DNA of 33,875 nucleotides from Lachnospira multipara LB2003. Its GTDB lineage: Bacteria > Bacillota > Clostridia > Lachnospirales > Lachnospiraceae. The stretch covers positions 473,473-507,347 of the forward strand of contig NZ_KL370871.1 of the NCBI RefSeq assembly GCF_000702205.1. Reading direction: 5' to 3'. The number at the start of each line of letters is the position of its first letter. Within the stretch, counting starts at the first letter, position 1. A program made the position numbers and the translations under genes. Positions 13,291-19,542 of this stretch are shown here, one piece after another. The notes under the pieces were generated by a model. The model was not told the DNA's origin, searched no databases, and saw only the letters and a program-made list of their open reading frames with translations.

Positions 13291-14370
13291 TTAAGCCAAC
13301 CTCCAATTAGAAGTCTGTAGCTGAACTTCTCTCATATGAGCAAACATGCTATCTTTTCTAGATAACAATTCCTTTGGAGATGCATTTTCTAATACACGTC
13401 CATCCTTTAAAACAACGATTCTATCTGCAGCCTCAACAGTACGCATTCTATGAGCAATAATTATTACTGTCTTATTCTTAATTAAGCTAGATAAAGCCTC
13501 CTGAATTAATGTTTCATTCTCCACATCTAGAGAAGCTGTGGCCTCATCTAATAAAATAATAGGAGCATCCTTTAAAAAAGCTCTAGCTATGGAGATTCTC
13601 TGTCTTTCACCTCCAGAAAGGTAAGTTCCCTTCTCTCCAATCACAGTATTTATACCCTTTGGTAACTTATTAATAATATCCATACACTGGGCTCTTCTAA
13701 GGGCTTCTCTCTTGGCATTAGCATATCTGTAACTGACATCCTTAAAACTAATGCTACAATCCTTAGGCATTTCTTGCTTGCCCTCATTATCAAGAGATTC
13801 CGTATTTAAAATCTTATCCACTCTTTCAATAGCATCCACTAAAGTCATCTCCTGCTCCCCAGAATAAACTAACTTTGTCATAGCAACTGTCAAAAGAGGA
13901 GTGATAATTATGTAATACATCATGTTTAGCACAAGTTCTTGGCTTACTCCCTTAGTTGAAAAAATGTATGCTGCCACAACTAAAGCTACGAAAACAGAGT
14001 TAATAGCAGTCATATATTTAACCATAGGCATTGTCATACTTTTGGTATAAGTAATAGCCCAATCTGTGTAATCATCAATAGCCTTACTAAATCTCTTAAA
14101 GCTAAAAACAGTCTGGCCAAAGGTCTTAACTACTGGAATTTCTCGAACATACTCCACTCCCTCATTAGATATAAGAGGCAGTGTTAAGATATGTTTCATT
14201 AGTTTCTCTCTCATTGTTGCTTGTATATGAAAAGCTGCAATATGAGTACACATTAGAGCTAAAATATACATAAACATTGAACCTAACATAATTGCCACTG
14301 CCATCCAGCCTATCTTTGGTATTTTGTCTAAATTTTCTCCAGATAAGGCGATTTTTAAAATGCGCCAAAT
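13291..14370 (-). pseudogene. ABC exporter (permease-ATPase) pseudogene with internal deletions
   Basis: The reading frame is open from 14370 but has no start; the first ATG is at 14304, giving 337 residues against about 580 expected for a fused ABC exporter. Two in-frame losses are visible against the family pattern. Near 14172, HILTLPL jumps directly to EGVEYVREIPVVKTF, removing transmembrane segments. Near 13713, the start of the ATPase domain (FKDVSYRYANAK) runs straight into RRAQCMDIINKLPKG, removing Walker A and the Q-loop. The signature LSGGERQR, Walker B IILLDEATASLD and His switch IIAHRM remain. Without Walker A it cannot bind ATP normally, so it is almost certainly non-functional as a transporter. 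The terminator is intact. Confidence 0.85.
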
Positions 14371-14486
14371 CTATAACAGTATTTAGATGTAAAATTCCCC
14401 ATCTAATTACATGTTAGTCATAACTAACCAAAAAGTAAAGAGTTTTATCAAATCTTGACCTATTCTCCGACTGAGTTAAAAAATCA

Positions 14487-14516
14487 TTGACACAATCAAA
14501 TTCTATATCGTATACT
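14487..14516 (+). promoter_or_regulatory. Sigma-A-type promoter upstream of two terminator hairpins
   Basis: TTGACA at 14487-14492 and TATACT at 14511-14516 are separated by 18 bp. A transcript starting near 14523 would run straight into the hairpin at 14532-14566. Confidence 0.6.
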
Positions 14517-14531
14517 TTCCTTAACAAACAA

Positions 14532-14566
14532 AGGCGTTTCGATTCAATATCGAAGCGCCTTTTTTG
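14532..14566 (+). terminator. First leader terminator/attenuator hairpin
   Basis: A 12-bp stem with one G-U pair (AGGCGTTTCGAT and ATCGAAGCGCCT, 5-nt loop) is followed by seven T. It begins only about 10 nt after the predicted start of transcription, so it would end a very short RNA unless bypassed. Confidence 0.75.
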
Positions 14567-14603
14567 TTATCAAATTTCATATTTTATTTAATAAAGACGA
14601 AGG

Positions 14604-14636
14604 AGTCCAGACCAAGATAGAGGTCTGGGCTTTTTT
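14604..14636 (+). terminator. Second leader terminator/attenuator hairpin
   Basis: A 10-bp stem with one G-U pair (AGTCCAGACC and GGTCTGGGCT) is followed by six T. It ends about 23 bp before the ATP-grasp start codon. It has the same design as the hairpin 70 bp upstream but unrelated stem sequence. Confidence 0.7.
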
Positions 14637-14658
14637 GTTTAAGGATAGGAGGAATGGT

Positions 14659-15969
14659 ATGGAGAGATTGTTAAATCACAAGAGCCAGATTAATAATCAG
14701 ATGGCAAGATATGGTGTTAAGTTTGGCATTTATAAGGACGGGGAGTTTTTGGAACGCCTTTTTCCATTTGATCCTATTCCAAGAAAAATAACAGCCCCAG
14801 ACTACGAAAAACTTGAAAAGGGGCTAATTCAGAGAGTGACAGCGCTAAATGCATTTCTTAATGACATTTACAATAATAAGAAAATTCTAGTGGACAAAAT
14901 TATACCAGAGGAGTTTGTCTATAGGTCGCCAGGTTATTTATCGGCATGCGAGAATTTCTCACCAGAAAAGAAGATTCACAGTCATATTTCAGGTATTGAC
15001 TTAGTTTTAGGAAAAGATGGAAAATGGTACATCCTAGAGGACAACCTTCGAATTCCCTCAGGAGCCTCATATCCCCTAATTGCTAGGAGCCTTTGTAGAA
15101 AATGTTCACCAGATACTTTCAGAAACAACGAAGTGGTGGATAACAGAAATTATGGACAGCTTTTAAAGGAGACTTTTGATAACGTAAATAAAGGCGGAAT
15201 TAACGTTATTTACACACCAGGAAGGTTTAATGCAGCTTATTTTGAGCATTCCTTTTTGGCAGAAAAGTCGGGAGCAGTGTTGGCTGAATTTGATGATTTG
15301 TTTGTGGAAAATAATATGCTTTACTACAAATCTAGCAAAGGCCCTGTAAGGGTTGGCGCCATTTATAGAAGAATAAGTGATGAGTTTTTAGACCCACTTA
15401 CTTTTAGAAGTGATTCCTTAATTGGAATTCCGGGAATTATGATGTCCTACAGGGCAGGAAATGTGGCTATTTTAAATGCACCAGGCAATGGAGTTGCCGA
15501 TGATAAGGGAATTTATTACTTCGTGCCAAAGATGATTAAATATTATCTTGATGAGGAGCCAATTCTTGATAACGCTCCTACTTATTTGCCATTTTACAAG
15601 GAGGACTTAAATTACACATTGGAAAATTTTGACAAACTTGTAATTAAAGATGTAGCAGAAGCTGGAGGCTACGGCGTTGTATTTGCAAGAGAATTAACTA
15701 AGGCAAGAAAAGAAGAATTTATTGAAAAAATAAAGAAGGAACCTAGAAGATTTATAGCTCAGGAAGTTATAGATTTCGAGGATTTGCCTATTGTAGAAGG
15801 TGGCGAAACTGTGGATAGAAAGGCGGATTTAAGAGCATTCGTCTTAGCAGGCAGAAAGACAAAGCTTTGGCCTAGCGGTTTGACTAGATTTTCAAGAAAC
15901 CCAGACAGCTTCGTGGTTAACTCATCTCAAGGAGGAGGTTTTAAGGATACATGGATTATGTCTCATTAA
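14659..15969 (+). CDS. Circularly permuted ATP-grasp protein (amidoligase-like)
   Basis: A 436-residue protein of the circularly permuted ATP-grasp family (DUF404/DUF407 group), a little shorter than the usual 470-490. Family motifs in order: LEDNLRIPSGASY (130s), TPGRFNAAYFEH (about 186-197), GNGVADDKGIYYFVPKMI (about 277-294), the nucleotide-binding LVIKDVAEAGGYG (about 327-339), KADLRAFVL (about 388-396) and the C-terminal SSQGGGFKDTW. ATP-grasp enzymes join a carboxylate to an amine through an acyl phosphate; this clade is predicted, not proven, to form peptide-like bonds. The start at 14659 follows AGGAGG; a TTG at 14635 is also in frame but lies in the hairpin's T-run. It overlaps the next gene by 19 bp. 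Confidence 0.88.
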   Translation: MERLLNHKSQINNQMARYGVKFGIYKDGEFLERLFPFDPIPRKITAPDYEKLEKGLIQRVTALNAFLNDIYNNKKILVDKIIPEEFVYRSPGYLSACENFSPEKKIHSHISGIDLVLGKDGKWYILEDNLRIPSGASYPLIARSLCRKCSPDTFRNNEVVDNRNYGQLLKETFDNVNKGGINVIYTPGRFNAAYFEHSFLAEKSGAVLAEFDDLFVENNMLYYKSSKGPVRVGAIYRRISDEFLDPLTFRSDSLIGIPGIMMSYRAGNVAILNAPGNGVADDKGIYYFVPKMIKYYLDEEPILDNAPTYLPFYKEDLNYTLENFDKLVIKDVAEAGGYGVVFARELTKARKEEFIEKIKKEPRRFIAQEVIDFEDLPIVEGGETVDRKADLRAFVLAGRKTKLWPSGLTRFSRNPDSFVVNSSQGGGFKDTWIMSH

Positions 15970-16625
15970 CTAAAACTAATAGATTATATTGGCTTGGGCG
16001 TTATTGCGAGCGCGTCTTATCCACAACTCAGTACATGATGTATTGGTATGACAGCATGATTGATGGAGCGGCCATCGATTATAAGGACTACTGCGAGAAA
16101 ATGGGTATCCCAGCAGACTATGAGAGCCCAGAAGCTTTCATACAGGAATACATCTTTGATAAGGAGAATGCATTTTCCTTAAGACATGCAGCAGAGGAGA
16201 TGCTAGCTAACGGCATGGTTTTAAGAGAAACCATAAGTTCAAAAACCCTGGCCTACATTCAGATGGCTGTAAATGCTCTGGAGCTTGGAAAGACTGACAG
16301 CGCACCGGGTGTGGAGCTCCAATGGGTTGTGGATGATGTTATGGCTTTTAGAGGAAGCTGTGATGATTTTATTGAAGAGGAATTTGTAAGAAACATTATT
16401 AAAACAGGCATTAGCATTGAGAGGTTAAGCCTTTATCTACGTCTTGGTTATAATTTGGAAAATGTAGCAAAAGAGCTGAAGAAAATGCTAAACAGGCTGC
16501 ATAAATCCGGCCTTCAGACTAATGCTATGTCCCTTGGACGAATTTATTTATATGGTAATGAAAATCAGCTAAATATTTCAGATGAGGATTTGTTAAAAGC
16601 AGTTGAAAACCTTGTAGTTTTGTAG
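15951..16625 (+). CDS. Alpha-E domain protein (DUF403)
   Basis: A 224-residue largely helical protein opening with the alpha-E signature SLTKTNRLYWLGRYCERV and containing the conserved DDVMAFRGSCDDFIEEE region. Alpha-E proteins are almost always encoded beside a circularly permuted ATP-grasp gene, as here, and are presumed to be partners in the same peptide-forming or transferring reaction; no activity is established. Full-length relatives are often near 310 residues, so this is a short version. The start overlaps the ATP-grasp gene by 19 bp, with AAGGA immediately upstream and AGGAGG 12 bp back, which points to coupled translation. Confidence 0.87.
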   Translation: MDYVSLTKTNRLYWLGRYCERVLSTTQYMMYWYDSMIDGAAIDYKDYCEKMGIPADYESPEAFIQEYIFDKENAFSLRHAAEEMLANGMVLRETISSKTLAYIQMAVNALELGKTDSAPGVELQWVVDDVMAFRGSCDDFIEEEFVRNIIKTGISIERLSLYLRLGYNLENVAKELKKMLNRLHKSGLQTNAMSLGRIYLYGNENQLNISDEDLLKAVENLVVL

Positions 16626-16637
16626 GGAGGGATGTTT

Positions 16638-17429
16638 ATGACAACATTAAGATTTAGCTATCAAACAAAGGTGGAATTTTCAGGGGATGTGACTAATCAT
16701 GCTTTTTTACTGAGAGCATTTCCGATTGAAGAAAAAGGACAAAAAGTGCTGGATTTAATGCACACAAATTCCCCTATTGTAACTGGGGGACAGTATTTAA
16801 AGGATGGTTTTGGCAATACAGTTTATACAGGAAGGATTGATGGAGGCCATGATTCCTTGACTTATAAGGTTATAGGAACTGTGATTCGAGACGATTCTAA
16901 AAAGTCTTTTGAAAAACCTTTACCTTCTTATCGTTATCCCTCGGAGCTTACTAAGGCTAGTCCGGAGATAATAAATTTTCATAAAAATTTAAATCTACCT
17001 TCAAATCATTATGAAGCTGCAAAGATTATTTCAAAGGCAGTTTATGATTATATGATTTACGAAACAGGCACAACATGTATCTTTACTACAGCTGCTGATA
17101 GCTTTAAGGGAAGAAAGGGAGTTTGTCAGGATTATGCACATTTAATGCTTACTCTTTGTAGACTTTCAAAGATTCCTGCAAGGTATGTGTGTGGAATTAC
17201 AATTGGTGAGGGTGAGACACATGCTTGGGTAGAAATTTGGAATGAGGGTTATTGGTATGGCTTTGATCCAACTAGAAACTGTTTTGTAGATGAGGGCTAC
17301 ATAAAATTTTGCATAGGCAGGGATTATAATGATTGCCCAATTCAAAGGGGCATCTTTAATGGTGATGTGCTTCAAAGACAGTCGGTCTATATGGAGGTGA
17401 CAAAATTAAAGGAAGCTTTGCTTGCCTAA
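16638..17429 (+). CDS. Transglutaminase-like cysteine peptidase-fold protein
   Basis: A 263-residue protein with a transglutaminase-like core. The catalytic triad is complete: Cys163 in KGVCQDYAH, His195 in ETHAWVEIW and Asp210 in GFDPTRN. The N-terminal 110 residues match the beta-rich domain usual in this group. Such proteins cleave or transfer peptide bonds and regularly accompany the ATP-grasp/alpha-E pair, so it probably trims, releases or transfers that pair's product. There is no signal peptide, so it should act in the cytoplasm. The start at 16638 is preferred because GGGAGGG is 6 bases upstream; the ATG at 16632 directly abuts it. Confidence 0.87.
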   Translation: MTTLRFSYQTKVEFSGDVTNHAFLLRAFPIEEKGQKVLDLMHTNSPIVTGGQYLKDGFGNTVYTGRIDGGHDSLTYKVIGTVIRDDSKKSFEKPLPSYRYPSELTKASPEIINFHKNLNLPSNHYEAAKIISKAVYDYMIYETGTTCIFTTAADSFKGRKGVCQDYAHLMLTLCRLSKIPARYVCGITIGEGETHAWVEIWNEGYWYGFDPTRNCFVDEGYIKFCIGRDYNDCPIQRGIFNGDVLQRQSVYMEVTKLKEALLA

Positions 17430-17444
17430 AAAGGGAGTTTATAG

Positions 17445-18374
17445 ATGATTAGTAACGTAGTTAGTTTAGGATTGCCAGTAGGTGAAAAATTAGCAATCCC
17501 AAGGAATCGAATTAAGGGAGAGGCTAAAGATAATGGAAAGAGGATATGTATTGTAACAGGAACCCACGGAGATGAATTAGAGGGGCAATATGTCAGTTTT
17601 ATGCTTAATAAGATTTTAGAAAAAAATAAATCTAAACTTCACGGCATTGTTGACATTTACCCCGCTAATAATCCTCTGGGAATCAGCACAATTTATAGAG
17701 GTTTACCAGGTTATGATTTAGATATGAACAGGATGTTTCCGGGAAGCTCCCATTCTTCAGGCTTTGATTATATGGTAAAAAAGATTTATGAAGATATTTG
17801 TGGAGCGGATCTATGTATAGACATCCACGCTAGTAACATTTTCTTAAGGGAAATTCCTCAGATTAGAATAAATGAAAATTCGGTTAAGACCTTGCTACCT
17901 CTTGCAAGACATATGAATATGGACTTTGTTTGGGTTCATCAGGCAGCAACAGTTTTAGAGAGCACCCTAGCCTACAGTCTGAATGAGGCAGGCACTCCAA
18001 CTCTTGTTGTAGAGATGGGGGTAGGCATGAGAATTACTAAGGATTATGGTGATCAGCTAATTGATGGCATTATGGCAACTATGAAAAAAATGGACATGTG
18101 GGATGGTGATGAGGCACCTATAAAACCACCAATAGTTAGTACTGACGGGCATGTTGGATTTATAAACGCCAATGAATCTGGTCTTTTTATTGCTTACATT
18201 AATCACGGTAGAAGGGTTAGAAAAGGCGAAATCATAGGGGCTGTTGTGGATTCCCTTGATGGGACTATAAAAGAGGAACTTAAAAGCCCGGTAAGCGGTT
18301 TGGTCTTTACTTTAAGGGAATATCCAATCGTTTACAACGGTTCCCTAATTGCAAGAGTACTAGGAGGTTTGTAA
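17445..18374 (+). CDS. AstE/AspA-family zinc deacylase or peptidase
   Basis: A 309-residue member of the succinylglutamate desuccinylase/aspartoacylase family (M14-like fold), which removes acyl groups from amino acids or cuts small amide bonds. All key residues are present: zinc ligands His41 and Glu44 in GTHGDE, His128 in CIDIHAS, substrate-binding Asn95-Arg96 in DMNRMFPG, and the probable general base Glu190 in LVVEMG. The C-terminal 80 residues form the usual beta domain. AGGGAG lies 7 bases before the ATG. It sits 15 bp after the transglutaminase-like gene in the same operon, so its likely substrate is the product or precursor of the ATP-grasp pathway. Exact substrate unknown. Confidence 0.85.
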   Translation: MISNVVSLGLPVGEKLAIPRNRIKGEAKDNGKRICIVTGTHGDELEGQYVSFMLNKILEKNKSKLHGIVDIYPANNPLGISTIYRGLPGYDLDMNRMFPGSSHSSGFDYMVKKIYEDICGADLCIDIHASNIFLREIPQIRINENSVKTLLPLARHMNMDFVWVHQAATVLESTLAYSLNEAGTPTLVVEMGVGMRITKDYGDQLIDGIMATMKKMDMWDGDEAPIKPPIVSTDGHVGFINANESGLFIAYINHGRRVRKGEIIGAVVDSLDGTIKEELKSPVSGLVFTLREYPIVYNGSLIARVLGGL

Positions 18375-18378
18375 AAAA

Positions 18379-19314
18379 ATGACACAAGAAACATTATTTG
18401 AGGTAAACGCCATGCCCTACAGGCAGGCAATTCCAGTTTATGGTTATAGATTTGGTAGTAACAAAAAGACCCTAGCCATTATGGGCGCCATGCGAGGTGA
18501 CGAGTTTCAGCAAATGTATATTTGCGCAAAGCTTGTTAAGACTCTTACAAAAATCGAGGCCGAAGGGAATCTAAATAAGGACTACGGAATCTTAGTAATC
18601 CCTTCTGCTAGCCAGTTTTCCATGAATGTGGGCAAACGTTTTTGGCCCGTGGATAACACAGATATTAATAGAATGTTTCCAGGCTATGATAAGGGCGAGA
18701 CTACACAGCGCCTTGCGGACAGCATTTTTAGGGAACTAAAAGGCTATCAGTATGGAATTCAGCTGGCTAGCTTTTACATTGCCGGGGAGTTTTTACCCCA
18801 TGTGCGCCTTATGAATACAGGCTACACAAACCCTGATGATGGCTATCTTTTTGGCCTACCTTATCTAGTTTTAAGAAAGCCAAAGCCTTACGACACCACC
18901 ACACTTAACTATAATTGGCAGGTTTTTGAAACAGATGCCTTTTCGGTTTACACCAAGGCCACTGAGCGTCTGGATGAGGAAAATGCAAACATTGCCCTAG
19001 AGGCCATCTTAAGATTTATGGCTAAAAAAGGCTTTATAGATTACGAAGGTGAGTTTGGCACAAAGACAAGTTTTGTTGAAGAATATGACATGCTTACAAT
19101 TCAAACAAAGGCAGCAGGTCTTTTTATACCTATTGCAAAAGCTGGAGATCTAGTTCTTGAAAATGAAGAAATAGCAGAAATCCTAAGTCCCTATACTGCA
19201 GAAAAACTAGAAGTCATAAAAGCTAAGAAAAAAGGAAGAGTCTTTTTTGTAAGACATGCGGAAGCTATTATGGAACATGATTTGATCTTTAGGATTATTC
19301 CGGAGGAAGTGTAG
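18379..19314 (+). CDS. AstE/AspA-family paralogue with lost zinc ligands
   Basis: A 311-residue paralogue of the preceding gene, 4 bp after it, with the same fold pattern (DINRMFPG, PHVRL, C-terminal beta domain). The active site is altered: the first zinc His is replaced by Arg39 (GAMRGDE instead of GTHGDE), and the second by Ala130 (GIQLASF against CIDIHAS). The Glu of the first motif, the Asn-Arg pair at 97-98 and a Glu at 184 remain. It is therefore probably a pseudoenzyme acting as a partner, regulator or substrate-holding subunit of the intact paralogue; a shifted metal site is less likely. The frame is clean, with no sign of decay. AGGAGG lies 11 bp upstream. Confidence 0.82.
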   Translation: MTQETLFEVNAMPYRQAIPVYGYRFGSNKKTLAIMGAMRGDEFQQMYICAKLVKTLTKIEAEGNLNKDYGILVIPSASQFSMNVGKRFWPVDNTDINRMFPGYDKGETTQRLADSIFRELKGYQYGIQLASFYIAGEFLPHVRLMNTGYTNPDDGYLFGLPYLVLRKPKPYDTTTLNYNWQVFETDAFSVYTKATERLDEENANIALEAILRFMAKKGFIDYEGEFGTKTSFVEEYDMLTIQTKAAGLFIPIAKAGDLVLENEEIAEILSPYTAEKLEVIKAKKKGRVFFVRHAEAIMEHDLIFRIIPEEV

Positions 19315-19317
19315 GGA

Positions 19318-19542
19318 TTATCTTTTTGGACTATAGAATTGTCTTGATTTTAAGCGTCTAGCTTCTTCAACTGTTGCTGAATTAAACATGTCTCTTAATT
19401 CAGCAGCTAATTGTTCGGAAGATTCTGCTAAAAGTACCTGATTTAGCAAAGCTTCCATGAGCTTTCCAAAAGCTTCATCTTTAGTTTCTGAGAAAAGTCC
19501 TACAAAAAAATCATAATCTAATGTAAAATATAATTGAGCCAT
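19318..19542 (-). pseudogene. IS256-type transposase remnant
   Basis: 74 codons. The first 50 or so (MAQLYFTLDYDFF through NQVLLAESSEQLAAE) match the N-terminus of IS256/Mutator-family transposases. The frame then jumps to ELRDMFNSATVEEARRL, which resembles an internal segment of the same family, before a short unrelated-looking end. The DDE catalytic region is absent; a full protein is about 400 residues. This is an internally deleted, inactive copy. Its stop lies 3 bp from the converging AstE-type gene. AAGGA precedes the ATG; an in-frame ATG at 19551 is also possible. Confidence 0.65.

Follow-up and report, generated by a model that had tools for sequence, protein, structure and literature searches.

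A five-gene operon and its leader in Lachnospira multipara

The window analysed here is a 33,875-nt stretch of the 2.58-Mb genome of Lachnospira multipara LB2003 (NZ_KL370871.1, positions 473,473-507,347; the genome is labelled G000). Its plus strand carries an operon encoding a circularly permuted ATP-grasp ligase (CP-ATP-grasp), an alpha-E protein, a transglutaminase-like (TG-like) protein and two AstE/AspA-family proteins, AstE1 and AstE2, all behind a leader. An earlier interpretation made from the letters alone (the sequence-only reading) had described five tightly packed genes of these families with a 19-bp overlap. This was borne out by the open reading frame (ORF) listing and the Pfam scan of the window, which gave all five ORFs at the following window coordinates.

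14476-19351, plus strand: transferred unit, leader and five genes (alignment with L. multipara ATCC 19207)
14487-14516, plus strand: sigma-70-type promoter, TTGACA-N18-TATACT (by eye; -10 region kept in loci L075-L077)
14525-14564, plus strand: leader element 1, an intrinsic terminator with an overlapping mini-hairpin, AAAC-AAAGGC-GTTT (14526-14539), an ANTAR-type site (44.8 bits with leader model R1, the window being inside the model; covariation; rule-based count)
14595-14637, plus strand: leader element 2, a terminator with an overlapping mini-hairpin, AGAC-GAAGGA-GTCC (14595-14608) (fold -20.4 kcal/mol; kept in L075-L077)
14647-14652, plus strand: ribosome-binding site, AGGAGG (by eye)
14659-15969, plus strand: CP-ATP-grasp ligase, W1 (PF14403, E 4.5e-134)
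15951-16625, plus strand: short alpha-E protein of 224 aa, W2 (PF04168, E 1e-16)
16632 or 16638 to 17429, plus strand: TG-like protein, W3 (PF01841, E 1.2e-18; PF08379, E 1.1e-7)
17445-18374, plus strand: AstE1, intact protein of the zinc amidohydrolase/carboxypeptidase fold, W4 (PF24827, E 4.1e-20)
18379-19314, plus strand: AstE2, pseudoenzyme paralogue, W5 (PF24827, E 3.2e-10)

In the window the ATP-grasp and alpha-E genes overlap by 19 bp, and gaps of 15 and 4 bp separate TG from AstE1 and AstE1 from AstE2. Among the 62 blocks whose five genes are all full-length, the median ATP-grasp/alpha-E overlap is likewise 19 bp, and AstE1 and AstE2 overlap by a median of 4 bp.

The five genes form a conserved block

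We searched a collection of genome contigs with AstE2 as bait (alignment A1) and kept the best 80 of at least 80 loci; counts from this set are biased by the bait. The five genes were found in order in 66 of the 80 (a few with the ATP-grasp gene cut at a contig end, two with a split gene), and 9 more were interrupted at contig ends. The exceptions were L126, where the trio of ATP-grasp, alpha-E and TG is divergently transcribed, L104, without a detectable TG, and L110, L136 and L143, which have just the pair or the pair and a remnant. An AstE1 match, sometimes partial, stood directly upstream of AstE2 in 80/80 loci. The carriers are gut and rumen bacteria. By record title the hosts are Lachnospiraceae, Oscillospiraceae, Selenomonadaceae and Acidaminococcaceae, joined by metagenome-assembled genomes (MAGs) labelled Treponema, Desulfovibrionaceae and Bacteroidales (labels as recorded, mis-binning possible).

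As a less biased sample we used 392 genomes drawn from Lachnospirales. Full or near-full ATP-grasp relatives were present in 36, and 34 of these had an adjoining AstE pair (in 32 on one contig and no more than about 6 kb away, in 2 across contig breaks). In a phylum sample of 299 genomes ATP-grasp occurred in 8, with an AstE2-like gene nearby in 5, the window genome included. Within Lachnospira the block was found in 3 of 22 genomes (some incomplete) and some AstE2 relative in 19. For any two of the five genes the pairwise distances are correlated (r 0.72-0.86; 0/500 permutations as high for each pair, species relatedness uncorrected). The linkage of pair and trio into one operon, proposed by the sequence-only reading, is supported, and the neighbourhood search it had suggested returned a conserved five-gene block.

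Neighbour clustering of the best 80 loci found no sixth conserved member: no family stood beside more than 12 of the 80, with ORF calling that misses genes in GC-rich loci. The commonest neighbours were ABC ATPases (12), asparagine synthase (7), Peptidase_C26 (5) and FUSC/HAD proteins (5). In G182 and G389 the block lies among nitrogen genes, in G182 with Peptidase_C26 and arginine-deiminase-like genes.

Other genes were seen beside some blocks. FUSC_2/HAD-hydrolase fusion proteins, possible exporters, recur next to blocks at L279:6294-7619, L115:6936-8213 and L287:2606-3895 (the last by eye), and a RelA/SpoT-domain protein of ~330 aa at L282:15258-16259 (domain scan), L284:13387-14373 and L285:17838-18824 (both alike by eye). 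In G196 a NADAR-domain gene lies between TG and AstE1 (L177:7646-8503). In two annotated plasmid operons, from Hymenobacter and Kozakia (L181, L182), the ATP-grasp and alpha-E genes have a gene for a putative zinc-binding metallopeptidase nearby instead of the AstE pair.

Active sites of the encoded proteins

Active-site residues were counted in the window and in the full-length copies among the best 80 loci. In W1 eight chosen positions were conserved in 66/66 sequences. Its Pfam matches were PF14403 and PF04174 only, and its sole relative in the PDB was 3n6x (E 7.8e-112), a putative glutathionylspermidine synthase. The PDB search found no relative of alpha-E, in which W14, G16, R17 and R21 were conserved in 68/68. 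W3 is related to 3isr (E 3.4e-16), and its Cys165-His197-Asp212, already read as intact from the window, was present in 67/67. On the ATP-grasp side, a relative is described as releasing phosphate from ATP (PMC6376114).

The zinc ligands and catalytic Glu of AstE1 are also intact, as had been read (His41, Glu44, Arg96, His128 and Glu190 in 75/75). AstE2 has Arg at the position of His41 in 80/80 sequences and Glu and Arg at those of Glu44 and Arg96, again in 80/80. The second zinc His was found in 0/80 (Ala in 56, Thr in 18, others in 6), and the catalytic Glu is Tyr in 77/80 and Phe in 3/80. AstE2 thus lacks the zinc ligands and catalytic Glu expected of a zinc hydrolase and retains the PF24827 fold family. 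Against the NCBIfam equivalog cut-off of 403 bits, the window pair scored 37 and 35.

AstE2 is retained as the partner of AstE1

The sequence-only reading had called AstE2 degenerate. This applies to its active site, lost in all 80 sequences, but not to the protein overall, since mean column identity is 60% for AstE1 and AstE2 alike (33 sequences each). Both occur in the identical 48 of the 392 Lachnospirales genomes, and by their coordinates they are adjacent in 50/50 copies, with a largest gap of 197 bp; the pair is therefore not peculiar to this genome. A decaying pseudogene was rejected as an explanation, because AstE2 is as conserved as AstE1 and always paired with it. The dN/dS of AstE2 between the window and L075 (0.47) comes from very few changes and is uninformative. 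Judged by its conservation, AstE2 is a pseudoenzyme partner and not debris. AstE1 and AstE2 quite probably act as a heteromer, since this best explains the strict retention of AstE2 alongside AstE1, also in genomes that have no trio. Neither this co-retention nor the survival of the pair without the trio had been foreseen by the sequence-only reading.

Two genomes of another class (G684 and G705) carry a divergent linked block whose second AstE retains the two zinc-binding His residues and has Leu in place of the catalytic Glu. It may be an intermediate and suggests stepwise loss of the site, with its orthology to AstE2 left unsettled by the tree, in which long branches meet.

Within the AstE/AspA family (PF24827), which includes DoeB and cyanophycin dipeptide hydrolase, AstE1 shares the fold, the zinc ligands and the catalytic Glu; the difference here is the strict pairing with an inactive paralogue. 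The M14 pseudopeptidases AEBP1, CPXM2 and CPD-III also have Tyr for the catalytic Glu (PMC11266112), but they are extracellular vertebrate or insect proteins and are not known to be paired with an active paralogue next to them in an operon. Mitochondrial processing peptidase likewise combines a catalytic, zinc-holding subunit with a paralogue in which the zinc ligands are absent (PMC11266112); it belongs to the M16 family and serves as an analogy only.

The window genome has a second AstE1/AstE2 pair, also absent from the sequence-only reading (G000:C2:13559-15426; L025:9542-11427), set between a FapA-size and a PurL-size gene. The FapA-size gene precedes this other Lachnospira pair in 10/10 fetched genomes, the window genome included, and the 1250-aa PurL-size gene follows in 8/10; the family names were assigned by Pfam in L030 only.

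Could the trio and the AstE pair be two separate modules, co-transcribed merely as both serve nitrogen metabolism? The pair occurs without the trio in 14 of its 48 Lachnospirales genomes, and the trio without the pair in 2 of 36 (G329, and G281, where the contig ends). Both counts weigh against a single five-gene system, and AstE pairs adjoin purL in four genera. The AstE tree places trio-less pairs within groups of block pairs, which suggests that the trio was lost repeatedly while the pair was kept whole. The linkage in 34/36 genomes, the correlated distances, the linkage seen again in the divergent block of G684 and G705, and the transfer as a single unit described below all argue against separate modules, an explanation we regard as improbable.

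The block seems to have moved as a bare cassette

When the window was compared with 19 kb (L026) and 12.9 kb (L075) of L. multipara ATCC 19207 (G002, the same contig as L075), the only alike part was 14476-19351. These 4,876 bp are 98.67% identical and end sharply in unrelated flanks, whereas identity across an 11.7-kb housekeeping stretch of the same genomes is 79.8%. As the block is 98.7% identical against 80% for housekeeping DNA, with unrelated flanks, it seems that a single unit made up of the leader and the five genes, with no further DNA, was transferred recently; together with the correlated distances this speaks against the separate histories that the sequence-only reading had considered. 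The block is richer in GC than the remainder of the window (38.5% against 34.4%). On the AstE tree, the window genes cluster with blocks of a Lachnospiraceae MAG, Selenomonas and Veillonellaceae; L135, the other block from Lachnospira, falls in a different part of the tree. At the cassette ends we found only 6-9 base matches as terminal repeats and saw no transposase. An ABC transporter ORF directly upstream of the cassette (13291-14304, minus strand) looks 5'-truncated.

Other Lachnospira genomes keep remnants of the block (L028:9277-10004 in G015, L029:9717-9968 in G008), with the leader and gene fragments or an AstE2 fragment; these are recent losses. In G356 (L191:5287-10458) two leader elements are followed by an amino-acid ABC transporter, a TG fragment and the AstE pair, which is a decaying block still behind its leader.

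The leader carries ANTAR-type mini-hairpins

The two terminator hairpins of the leader (14525-14637) were not part of the sequence-only reading. In many blocks a terminator hairpin comes directly after the promoter, and its 5' strand is conserved and GCAAAGGCG-like. We extracted 48 leader pieces and picked by eye 30 with clean hairpins for alignment A5. Across this chosen set the terminator helix shows covariation (two-sided changes in 69 cells, 0/500 shuffles), and a short helix round the hexaloop ANNGNN, mutually exclusive with the terminator, covaries on three of five measures. This mini-hairpin is 89% paired in place and at most 49% when slid, and its 3' strand is part of the terminator 5' strand. 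A rule-based mini-hairpin was present in 42 of 64 leaders, compared with a mean of 2.39 and a maximum of 7 in 100 shuffles, the rule having been framed after seeing the leaders. Element 1 of the window has the hexaloop with A1 and G4 and the terminator overlap. The loop of element 2 starts with G; it passes the rule only if G is allowed first, and has no R1 match. Rfam families were looked for in the window and, in 11 further loci, ahead of the ATP-grasp gene; none reached its gathering threshold, and a lax scan of the leader gave only matches below family thresholds.

In known ANTAR antiterminators the 3' strand of a hexaloop hairpin is shared with the 5' strand of the terminator (PMC3369931). 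The leaders described there (Ramesh 2012) resemble ours in the hexaloop with A1 and G4, its overlap with an intrinsic terminator and the nitrogen genes behind it. They differ in that our leaders have one hairpin per terminator, near the presumed RNA start and often in tandem, and that in ours the classical P1, a second hexaloop hairpin further upstream, was not found by eye.

A leader element common to the block and nitrogen assimilation genes

Model R1 was built on block leaders only and was run on 21 block-bearing genomes, where it marked at least about 150 places. We followed 70 of them (30 returned and 40 fetched, mainly by E-value, with palindromic reverse matches skipped), six from the window genome. 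Nine had no ORF behind them, five were the block itself and one was a repeated amtB; the other 55 were scanned. The next gene encoded glutamine synthetase in 12 cases, AmtB in 10 and glutamate synthase in 2, counts that stand without a matched background. A Na:alanine symporter (3), asparagine synthase (1), ornithine cyclodeaminase (1) and amino-acid ABC genes also followed. Nitrogen-assimilation genes of these kinds number only a handful in a genome of such size. In the window genome R1 marked the block, a P-II-fused amtB with gltB behind it and, at a weak score, the gene of a type III glutamine synthetase. In 4/4 other genomes scanned an ANTAR gene (PF03861) lay directly after glutamine synthetase I. 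Three genomes, G166, G379 and G387, have an amino-acid ABC transporter standing between leader and block (by Pfam in L279 only).

Several observations weigh against this picture. Two of the five covariation measures of the mini-hairpin were matched by shuffles (93 and 144 of 500), the strict mini-hairpin is missing in 22 of 64 leaders (15 if G is allowed first; the rule is post hoc), and 10 of 32 block loci outside the model have an R1 match within 200 bases before the ATP-grasp gene. Inspection of the leaders by eye did not identify P1; there is little room for it before the terminator, and tandem elements were seen where it was looked for. Many R1 matches precede genes without an evident nitrogen role, one of them a phage portal gene, and the nine places without an ORF count on the same side. 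In the window genome the glutamine synthetase match is weak (E 0.09), the amtB match lies 172 bases before the gene and could be the terminator of the preceding enolase gene, and the second AstE pair (L025) has no R1 match. With these points taken into account, we still consider it highly likely that the five-gene block is under nitrogen control.

Related genes are reported to respond to nitrogen in Proteobacteria. The trio of B. cenocepacia H111, described there as genes for DUF404/407, DUF403 and transglutaminase, depends on NtrC (PMC5491218). Nitrogen limitation of P. putida raised PP_2686-2688 by 11-37-fold and the Anbu gene PP_2685 by 1.1-4.8-fold (PMC7801951), and a separate study reported 6.6-11.1-fold for PP2685-2687 (PMC3325844); from the operon order we infer that PP_2687 is alpha-E and PP_2688 ATP-grasp. 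Marine metagenomes link these domains to urea metabolism (PMC3597751). Since two unrelated regulators, a probable ANTAR protein and NtrC, would act on one gene set, a nitrogen role is likely.

Relation to the Anbu operon

The Anbu operon consists of CP-ATP-grasp, alpha-E, transglutaminase-like and Anbu genes (Iyer 2009, via PMC5666114 and PMC6376114), and its role is given as unproven (PMC6376114). The window operon has the first three families adjacent in the same order, and induction under nitrogen limitation is reported for the P. putida operon. It differs in having the AstE1/AstE2 pair after the trio in place of Anbu, an alpha-E of 224 aa (307 in L169) and an ANTAR-type leader rather than NtrC. 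No Anbu match (PF00227) over the cut-off was found in 34 Lachnospirales genomes, with one weak partial match in G346; 7 other genomes have one PF00227 match of 184-206 aa, which does not lie near the ATP-grasp gene. The open-access literature searched gave no description of the five-gene form, which Iyer 2009 may already mention.

Proposed function and alternatives

Taken together, the five genes read, with moderate confidence, as a compact, horizontally moving nitrogen-regulon operon that would form and hydrolyse an amide or isopeptide conjugate for nitrogen salvage. Chemistry of ligation plus hydrolysis is the probable part of this proposal; that it serves scavenging, rather than storage or protein tagging, we suggest tentatively. 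When nitrogen is short (ammonium and glutamine low), an ANTAR protein would bind the mini-hairpins, the terminators would not form and the operon would be read. CP-ATP-grasp, probably partnered by alpha-E, would join a carboxylate to an amine, and the TG-like thiol enzyme would cleave or transfer the amide. In the AstE1/AstE2 heteromer AstE1 would be catalytic and AstE2 would recognise the substrate via its retained Arg98, and an amino acid with a free carboxylate would be released. The operon would then resemble ligation-assisted amine salvage, as in the glutamylputrescine pathway and in glutathionylspermidine synthetase/amidase, or else the ligase and peptidase of RimK/RimB.

The block could instead modify proteins, with the ATP-grasp adding amino acids at the end of a protein or peptide and the TG-like protease and AstE1/AstE2 removing them, so that a target would be tuned to the nitrogen state. 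The same three folds make up a known writer/eraser set, that of tubulin, with TTL (ATP-grasp), CCP (M14) and vasohibin (TG-like). The ATP-grasp enzymes of RimK and Rlo are not of the permuted type. RimK/RimB, which acts on RpsF, and Rlo set an ATP-grasp ligase against an opposing peptidase (PMC12239564); their peptidase is of an unrelated aspartic type. An eraser would also fit a hydrolase retained without the ligase in 14/48 genomes. No target gene accompanies the block and the comparison is one of folds only, so we find protein modification unlikely. A fuller version, a nitrogen-state writer/eraser of amino-acid additions with a ligase, a thiol eraser and an active/inactive zinc eraser, spreading between gut bacteria as a bare 4.9-kb cassette, we also hold to be unlikely.

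The sequence-only reading had placed the genes in one pathway of ligation and deacylation. Ligation with hydrolysis fits our findings; the small peptide-like metabolite it named as the product has no support in them. In such a biosynthetic cluster ATP-grasp and alpha-E would ligate, TG transfer or release and AstE trim a product that is exported or acts as a signal. A ligase and hydrolases within one operon, the compact transferred cassette and the FUSC_2/HAD-type membrane proteins beside 5 of the best 80 loci would suit it, but no family reaches more than 12 of the 80 (in GC-rich loci genes are missed) and the control element is common to central nitrogen genes, which makes it distinctly improbable. 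A reversible, cyanophycin-like nitrogen store, in which the ligase makes a polymer or dipeptide and the AstE pair releases it, is very doubtful: cyanophycin dipeptide hydrolases of the AstE/AspA family are reported (PMC10206079), but a store is expected in nitrogen excess while the leader is common to assimilation genes, and the block has no CphA-type synthetase adjoining its AstE-type hydrolase, W1 being of another Pfam family and related in the PDB to the putative glutathionylspermidine synthase only.

We know of no proven function for ATP-grasp/alpha-E/transglutaminase systems since their prediction in 2009. The salvage reading would give them one role under two unrelated regulators, a nitrogen attenuator in gut Firmicutes and NtrC in Proteobacteria. 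AstE1/AstE2 would be a strict pair of active and inactive enzymes in a bacterial M14-like family. On the fuller writer/eraser reading, if true, separate control by ANTAR in Firmicutes and by NtrC in Proteobacteria would mark nitrogen scavenging as what these systems do in general.

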